Part shown: positions 15,730-17,703 of the stretch, piece by piece
How the letters are laid out: every line of letters begins with the position of its first letter
Numbering within the stretch: the stretch's first letter is position 1
NCBI RefSeq assembly: GCF_009695875.1
Contig: NZ_VUNC01000001.1
Location: forward strand, 186,001-250,000
Direction: 5' to 3'
Source: Olsenella porci
GTDB taxonomy: Bacteria; Actinomycetota; Coriobacteriia; Coriobacteriales; Atopobiaceae
DNA length: 64,000 nt
Notes under the pieces: generated by a model
Told to the model about the DNA's origin: nothing
Databases searched by the model: none
The model's input: the letters and a program-made list of their open reading frames with translations, nothing else
Program-made: the position numbers and the translations under genes

Positions 15730-17016
15730 ATGCTTGACATCAAGTTCGTCAGGGAGAACCCCGACGTCGTCGACAAGGCCTGCGAGTCCAGGCAGAACGC
15801 CCACTGGGACCGCCAGAGGTTCTTCGAGCTGGACGAGGAGCGTCGCAGCACCATCACCGAGGTCGAGGCGCTCCAGGCGCAGCGCAATGCCGTCTCCAAG
15901 CAGATCGGCCAGCTCATGAGGGAGGGCCGCCGAGACGAGGCGGAGCAGGCCAAGGCGCAGGTGAGCGCAAACAAGGAGCGCATCTCCCAGCTTGACGACA
16001 GGCGCGCCGAGGTCGAGAAGGAGCTCTTTGACCTTGTCGCGGCAATCCCTAACATCCCCCACGAGTCCGTTCCCTACGGCGTCGACGACTCCGACAATCC
16101 CGAGGTCCGCAAGTGGGGCGAGCCGACGAAGTTTGACTTTGAGCCCAAGGCACACTGGGACCTGGGTCCCTCCACGGGAATGATCGACTTCGACCGTGGC
16201 GTGAAGCTTGCGGGCACGCGCTTCTACCTCCTGGGAGGCGCCGGCGCCCTCATGGAGCGTGCCCTCATCAACTTCTTCATCGACGAGCACGTGAAGGCCG
16301 GGTTCAAGGAGTGGTGGCCCCCTGTCATCACCAACTACGACTCCCTCTTTGGCACGGGACAGCTCCCCAAGTTTGACGAGGATTTGTTCCATGTGAGCGG
16401 CGGCATGTACCTTATCCCGACCGCCGAGGTCATGCTCACTAACATCCACCGCGGCGAGGTGCTTGACGGCGACAAGCTCCCCCTGTGGTACACCGCGTTC
16501 ACCCCTTGCTTCCGCGAGGAGGCCGGCTCTGCTGGCCGCGACACACGCGGCATCATCCGCGTCCACGAGTTCGACAAGGTTGAGATGGTCAAGTTTGCCA
16601 AGCCCGACGACTCCATGAACCAGCTCGAGTCCATGGTCGCCGAGGCCGAGCACTGCCTTCAGAAGCTCGGTCTGCCGTACCACGTGGTCTCGCTCTGCAC
16701 GGGCGACCTTGGGTTCTCTGCCACCAAGTGCTACGACCTCGAGGTGTGGCTGCCCAGCTACAACAACTACAAGGAGATCTCGAGCTGCTCCAACTGCTGG
16801 GACTTCCAGGCCCGTCGTGCCAACATCAAGTACCGCGACCCCTCCGAGTTCAAGGGGACGCGTCTTGTCCACACGCTCAACGGCTCTGGTCTTGCGGTGG
16901 GGCGTACCATGGCGGCAATCATGGAGAACTACCAGAACGCAGACGGCTCCATCACCGTCCCCGAGGCCCTGCGTCCGTACATGCGTGACATGGAGGTCAT
17001 CAAGCCCCAGGCGTAG
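15730..17016 (+). CDS. serS: Seryl-tRNA synthetase
   Basis: A cytoplasmic class II synthetase of 428 residues that charges tRNA-Ser, as expected for a full-length bacterial SerRS. The N-terminal coiled-coil arm (about 30-105) that grips the long variable arm of tRNA-Ser is clear. Motif 2 is FREEAGSAGRDTRGIIRVHEF, starting near residue 262, and motif 3 is LAVGRTMAAIMENYQ. The serine-binding PTAEV is present. I choose ATG 15730, which follows AGGGGAAG; the frame extends 13 codons upstream without an RBS. A tRNA-Ser gene lies about 1 kb downstream on the other strand. A terminator follows at 17074. Confidence 0.97.
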   Translation: MLDIKFVRENPDVVDKACESRQNAHWDRQRFFELDEERRSTITEVEALQAQRNAVSKQIGQLMREGRRDEAEQAKAQVSANKERISQLDDRRAEVEKELFDLVAAIPNIPHESVPYGVDDSDNPEVRKWGEPTKFDFEPKAHWDLGPSTGMIDFDRGVKLAGTRFYLLGGAGALMERALINFFIDEHVKAGFKEWWPPVITNYDSLFGTGQLPKFDEDLFHVSGGMYLIPTAEVMLTNIHRGEVLDGDKLPLWYTAFTPCFREEAGSAGRDTRGIIRVHEFDKVEMVKFAKPDDSMNQLESMVAEAEHCLQKLGLPYHVVSLCTGDLGFSATKCYDLEVWLPSYNNYKEISSCSNCWDFQARRANIKYRDPSEFKGTRLVHTLNGSGLAVGRTMAAIMENYQNADGSITVPEALRPYMRDMEVIKPQA

Positions 17017-17073: not shown

Positions 17074-17107
17074 GGGGTGTCCCGCCTGTGCGGGGTACCC
17101 CTTTTCT
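17074..17107 (+). terminator. Terminator after serS
   Basis: Stem 17074-17078/17097-17101 plus inner stem 17081-17085/17090-17094 around a CTGT loop, then TTTTC. It isolates serS from the following SOS-box gene. Confidence 0.8.
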
Positions 17108-17123
17108 ATAAAGTCTGATACGA

Positions 17124-17139
17124 TAGAACAAATGTTCTA
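17124..17139. promoter_or_regulatory. LexA-type SOS box
   Basis: A perfect 16-bp inverted repeat, TAGAACA-AA-TGTTCTA, containing GAAC-N4-GTTC (17126-17137), the core of the LexA operator in Gram-positive bacteria and actinobacteria. It lies 20 bp before the ATG at 17159 and after the serS terminator, so it should control only that gene. Confidence 0.7.
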
Positions 17140-17158
17140 CTACGGAGAGGAGACGAGC

Positions 17159-17536
17159 ATGGCGGGCAAGTGGGAAGAGGTCCTGAGAGATGGTGGGGAT
17201 GACGAGCTCAGGGTCATAACCGCCAAGATGGAGGGTGACACCCTCTTTGTAGAGGAGAGGACCGAAGGAAACGCGACCAGACTGGTCTACGAGGAGGACT
17301 GCCACAAGCACATGGTGCGCGTCCGCGGGGATTCCCTCCGTGCCCTGAAGGCGTCCCTGGAGGCAGAGATGGAGGTCCCCCCTGCGCCAATGCTCCAGGT
17401 GCTCCGTATGTTCCTTTCTGAGCATCGCAGCATGCTCGACCTTCAGGACAGGTTGGACAGGGCGGCCGTTCCATACGACTACATCTCGCGCGAGGGCGTG
17501 TGTGAGATCTATCGCCCGGGCGTCACCTTTAGGTAA
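17159..17536 (+). CDS. Unknown 125-residue protein, probably SOS-regulated
   Basis: The ATG at 17159 is preceded by GGAGAGGAGA. The frame is open upstream into serS, but an ATG at 17132 would sit inside the SOS box, so the downstream start is better. The protein is soluble, acidic and has no signal peptide. It contains a Glu/Asp-rich first half, a helix-rich middle and the C-terminal segment YDYISREGVCEIYRPG. Cysteines are few. I recognise no domain. The LexA-like box and separate terminator make a monocistronic damage-inducible gene likely, for example a division inhibitor, a repair accessory factor or a LexA-regulated modulator, but the sequence does not choose among these. Confidence 0.72.
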   Translation: MAGKWEEVLRDGGDDELRVITAKMEGDTLFVEERTEGNATRLVYEEDCHKHMVRVRGDSLRALKASLEAEMEVPPAPMLQVLRMFLSEHRSMLDLQDRLDRAAVPYDYISREGVCEIYRPGVTFR

Positions 17537-17626: not shown

Positions 17627-17703
17627 TGGTGCGGCGTATAGGATTCGAACCTATGACGTTCTGATTCGTAGTCAGACCCTCTATCCAGCTGAGGTAACGC
17701 CGC
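17627..17703 (-). tRNA. tRNA-Arg (anticodon ACG), CCA encoded
   Basis: Read on the minus strand: acceptor GCGGCGT/ACGCCGC, anticodon stem TCTGA/TCAGA with loop CTACGAA (anticodon ACG, wobble A normally edited to inosine), T-loop TTCGAAT, discriminator A and CCA. It decodes CGN codons. Confidence 0.97.

Follow-up and report, generated by a model that had tools for sequence, protein, structure and literature searches.

What does a short gene do when it lies directly beneath a LexA-like box and belongs to no known protein family? The question arises in the window, a 64-kb stretch of the Olsenella porci genome, where a 125-residue protein is encoded behind serS (Table 1). The box has the core GAAC-AAAT-GTTC (GAACAAATGTTC), read from the sequence at 17126-17137, and both the core and the 125-codon ORF of the original prediction are present. 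The terminator boundary placed upstream of the gene is also there, since a 12-bp stem and T tail end serS. Two details change: the supposed 16-bp perfect palindrome pairs at only 14 of 16 positions, with 7-bp arms (TAGAACA and TGTTCTA) around two non-pairing central bases (AA), and the box does precede the gene, but with 21 rather than 20 nt before the ATG. No sigma-70-like promoter pair near the box passed a simple consensus scan. Taken alone, the box proves nothing, because the 12-mer GAACN4GTTC is found once in the 64-kb window and 0.79 times would be expected by chance.

Table 1. Features around the predicted operator in the window (positions counted from its first base)
Feature	Position	Strand	Basis
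serS, conserved upstream neighbour, outside box control	15730..17016	+	
Intrinsic terminator of serS, stem-loop then TTTTCTAT	17074..17101	+	Scan: 12-bp stem, 9 G-C pairs, T tail
Possible extended -10 element (TG-A-TACGAT), immediately 5' of box	17119..17124	+	Inferred from reading the sequence
LexA operator (SOS box) TAGAACAAATGTTCTA, predicted	17124..17139	.	Motif shared with recA, ruvC, uvrB and lexA and kept in orthologues
Ribosome binding site region (GGAGAGGAG)	17144..17152	+	5/6 match to AGGAGG
SOS gene, 125-residue protein, family outside Pfam/NCBIfam/PHROGs	17159..17536 (including stop)	+	ORF call; 125 codons from ATG at 17159, stop at 17534-17536
tRNA-Arg(ACG), conserved downstream neighbour	17627..17703 (approximate)	-	ARAGORN on homologous locus L034, with tRNA-Arg(acg) 94 bp past the match

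The genome's own LexA motif gives the box its meaning. Across the 2.36 Mb of O. porci (15 contigs), GAACN4GTTC occurs at 16 sites, compared with 88 for the pattern read backwards, and the exact 16-mer TAGAACN4GTTCTA occurs in two places, at the SOS gene and at ruvC, with one further site carrying one mismatch. The check proposed with the original prediction, a search for the box before lexA, recA and known SOS genes, yields exact copies upstream of the single recA (GAACATGCGTTC) and of ruvC (TAGAACAGACGTTCTA), which is followed by an apparent ruvA; both ruv genes are identified from their translations. uvrB has a box with 7 of 8 fixed bases, 26 nt 5' of its start (GTACACTTGTTC), and the promoter of the single lexA holds three boxes at 7/8 (GAACACGTGTAC, GAACATATGTGC, GAACATTTGTTT). 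Across the Coriobacteriales, two to four boxes at 7/8 or better lie upstream of lexA in 18 of the 18 loci that a script could orient; 12 further loci were not orientable and were left out. The core is the same as in the Streptomyces LexA motif tCGAAC-N4-GNNCGa (PMC9380542) and in the search motif used for C. difficile, GAACnnnnGTTC (PMC4234289). GAACN4GTTC is therefore evidently the LexA motif of O. porci, as judged from sequence, and the suggestion that its LexA recognises something else fails against the same box at recA, ruvC, uvrB and lexA.

Similar boxes mark three other genes of this genome. One, GAACACCTGTAC (G000:C12:149225-149236, L365), lies 14 nt upstream of a putative DNA-repair or DNA-modification radical SAM gene (TIGR03916), whose product is a candidate second little-known member of the SOS regulon. 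Another, TAGAACAAACGTTCTT (G000:C8:318061-318072, L013), precedes by 20 nt a minus-strand gene for a 124-residue RF-1-domain (GGQ) protein that resembles release factors, with an N-terminal part matching NCBIfam prfB, prfA and prfH; it is possibly a ribosome rescue factor under SOS control. An exact box, GAACAAGCGTTC (G000:C1:372240-372251, L006), is found 36 nt before a 79-residue ORF (MYGSGYERQRPRFQVGERVEV...).

Conservation in homologues carries the argument further. Scoring covered 127 copies, each from -220 to +25 relative to the start of the match, and six second, prophage-type or divergent copies, all box-less, were set aside to leave 121 chromosomal ones. GAACN4GTTC is exact in 100 of these, keeps 7 of its 8 fixed bases in 20, and falls to 6 in one, a primary copy (in genome G020) that has no box and sits at a different locus; equally long control windows elsewhere in the same loci give 0/895 exact matches and 39/895 at 7/8, and because related genomes contribute to these counts they are not independent trials. 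At the genus level, an exact copy is present in 27 of the 29 sampled, and every one of the 29 reaches 7/8. The consensus of the 121 exact boxes, a script count in which some copies contribute two, is GAACANNTGTTC; the median distance of exact boxes is 54 nt 5' of the start codon, and many Olsenella carry two boxes 15-17 bp apart. The box is kept while the proteins have fallen to about 25% identity. Orthologues thus retain the box, as the original prediction asked of them, and together with the genome's own motif this supports its candidate damage-response protein. LexA control of the SOS gene can be put forward with high confidence on these grounds, and the gene is almost certainly a DNA-damage gene.

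The gene belongs to a family with a characteristic location. A search with the single protein matches 44 of the 140 genomes from its own taxonomic family, the Atopobiaceae, and a search of the genome-contig set finds no relatives, as the sequence is too divergent; a profile built from 28 members matches 177 of 397 Coriobacteriales genomes. These are mainly Atopobiaceae (Olsenella, Parafannyhessea, Thermophilibacter, Atopobium) and Coriobacteriaceae (Collinsella, Enorma), named from the neighbours in a serS search. Most loci run serS, box, gene and tRNA-Arg(ACG), with tRNA-Ser(GCT) and gluQ-rs frequently coming next; in some, a gene that reads in translation as patatin-like or dipeptidase-like separates serS from the SOS gene, and the box still adjoins the latter. 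About 20 of the 140 Atopobiaceae genomes, several of them nearly complete, give no match to the profile, so the gene is either dispensable there or diverged past detection. Scans of all family members against Pfam, NCBIfam and PHROGs return nothing credible, only scattered single-member matches near threshold, and a PDB sequence search with two profiles gives no match. Calling the gene an orphan is off in one respect, as it belongs to an order-wide family at a fixed location. Beyond the order, one weak profile match (E 5e-7) is a 114-residue protein at G630:C1:49413-49706 (L357), from a distantly related lineage within the phylum, near a prolyl-tRNA-synthetase-like gene, at a different site and without a LexA box; it is possibly a remote relative. 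A second profile (A2) collects shorter, box-less relatives, mostly of 101-103 residues, from some ten genomes and three IMG/VR viral contigs, and tblastn against annotated phages finds no family member.

Sequence and predicted structure suggest what kind of protein this is. Sequences in the alignment of 28 members share 22-36% identity with the window protein, and the median dN/dS among close homologues is 0.23 (66 pairs, dS < 2), which indicates a family under purifying selection yet fast-evolving. AlphaFold models of the window protein (a confident, compact fold; pLDDT 93.8, pTM 0.86) and of a 101-residue prophage-borne relative (pLDDT 92.9, pTM 0.83) have a beta-beta-beta-alpha-beta-alpha-alpha-beta core in common, and Foldseek returns no match at E <= 0.001 against the PDB and viral models. 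The top Foldseek match for the window model, the XRCC4-superfamily head domain of CCDC61 (PDB 6hxv; probability 0.96), was dropped: its E value is 0.008, its TM score 0.41 and its rmsd 12, and it is absent for the relative's model. Net charge has a median of -8 in chromosomal copies, a form that is only moderately acidic, and runs from -7 to -16 in prophage-borne copies, with those of about 101 aa mostly at -12 to -16. In the wide alignment, G37 is the sole invariant residue and Y106 is nearly invariant; polar residues that are near-invariant in Atopobiaceae are not kept there. Since only G37 is invariant across this range, a partner-binding protein appears likelier than an enzyme, and an enzyme with lineage-specific residues is the less likely reading.

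These observations point to a simple scheme. LexA repression and its relief by RecA-stimulated self-cleavage are established. Here, a LexA dimer on the box, overlapping the promoter and start region, would keep the gene off; damage would give rise to RecA filaments and LexA self-cleavage, and the small protein would then be made alongside RecA, RuvC and UvrB. The product is predicted to be a soluble, mostly acidic single domain with the modelled beta-beta-beta-alpha-beta-alpha(s)-beta fold and no conserved catalytic residues, so that its role would be non-enzymatic. Most probably it would bind and modulate a single protein of the damage response, as SOS effectors of the DinI or SulA type do; candidate partners are the RecA filament, a nuclease and the replication machinery. 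The whole proposal, a core Coriobacteriales SOS gene that is repressed by LexA and whose product binds and modulates one damage-response protein, is the reading we favour, with moderate confidence. The setting is that of the Gram-positive and actinobacterial LexA regulon, with the same box core, a near-promoter position and recA, lexA, ruvC and uvrB as co-members, but the family of the 125-residue protein is no known member of it, and the box flanks, which are CG in Streptomyces (PMC9380542), prefer A/TA...T here.

One form of this proposal would make the protein a feedback regulator of the SOS switch, acting on the RecA filament or on LexA cleavage as an analogue of DinI or PsiB. DinI is itself LexA-controlled, and DinI and PsiB, SOS modulators that bind RecA, are likewise small, acidic, single-domain proteins; the family is conserved in a core regulon with recA and lexA, and its prophage-borne relatives would gain from tuning SOS. 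Sequence searches and Foldseek return no detectable similarity to DinI or PsiB, however, and the acidity is only moderate; we rate this specific form as rather unlikely.

The protein could instead block septation, as SulA, SidA and YneA do, with its fast evolution tracking a divisome target. Those inhibitors are SOS-controlled, small and lineage-specific, and the window gene resembles them in being LexA-controlled, small, fast evolving and lineage-restricted. That place, however, seems already taken: a YneA-like LysM/transmembrane protein is encoded divergently from lexA in the window genome (NCBIfam YneA, E 4e-14, 52.3 bits, under the 60-bit cut-off) and in most Atopobiaceae and Coriobacteriaceae lexA loci read. 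Because this protein holds the place beside lexA, a second division inhibitor is less likely. Neither a membrane segment nor a LysM domain is evident in the window protein, searches give it no sequence or fold similarity to SulA, SidA or YneA and no structural match to SulA, and we regard this role as unlikely.

Restriction alleviation, in which an anti-nuclease would shield the cell's DNA while it is damaged or temporarily lacks modification in the SOS response, draws on the prophage-borne relatives. On one flank these have an SPP1-type phage portal gene with a terminase nearby; on the opposite flank, restriction-modification or Ssp/BREX-like genes occur in all 10 loci with a readable flank. 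A precedent is the damage-linked restriction alleviation known for EcoKI (PMC4231737, PMC11109961). The guilt by association was nevertheless demoted, as comparable cargo is present at this site in related prophages without the gene: 18 control regions behind related portals contain no family member, and of the 17 long regions about 12 have methylase-type cargo, scored by simple motifs. The site is therefore a defence hotspot, and the restriction link, suggestive only, may be incidental. HSDR_N has no match in the window genome, and just 62 of the 140 Atopobiaceae genomes have one, which makes type I restriction far rarer than the chromosomal gene; the chromosomal form of the protein also has only moderate acidity. 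The family also has no similarity to a known ArdA/Ocr-type anti-restriction DNA mimic in Pfam, NCBIfam or PHROGs. This role is accordingly rated a little below division inhibition. The prophage type itself is widespread, with a portal match in 120 of 397 Coriobacteriales genomes, and the defence genes at the hotspot just behind its portal are exchangeable and include restriction-modification and Ssp/BREX-like cargo (L274-L276, L358-L360, L375-L380, L415-L432).

A coincidental box, with the gene outside LexA control, would suit the roughly one such 12-mer that chance puts in a 64-kb window, but is highly improbable beside at least 7/8 fixed bases in 120 of 121 homologues and no exact match among the 895 controls.

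A LexA-repressed protein that modulates a damage-response partner thus remains the preferred reading, and it has consequences beyond this locus. A damage function for this family is named in no database. The Coriobacteriales are a major bacterial group of the gut and mouth, and a literature search turned up nothing on their SOS response. A LexA operator kept through divergence to about 25% protein identity is strong evolutionary evidence for a function in damage, and the locus offers a defined entry point: one short gene, one operator and one fixed location. From the relatives carried by prophages, it seems that phages also make use of this protein. Tentatively, and with less assurance than the core proposal, the family may be a new class of SOS effector with an unassigned fold, whose box-less form prophages either took up or gave rise to at their defence hotspot, tuning RecA, restriction or phage induction. 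If true, it would represent a new way of tuning these processes during DNA damage, as part of a core response that spans the order.
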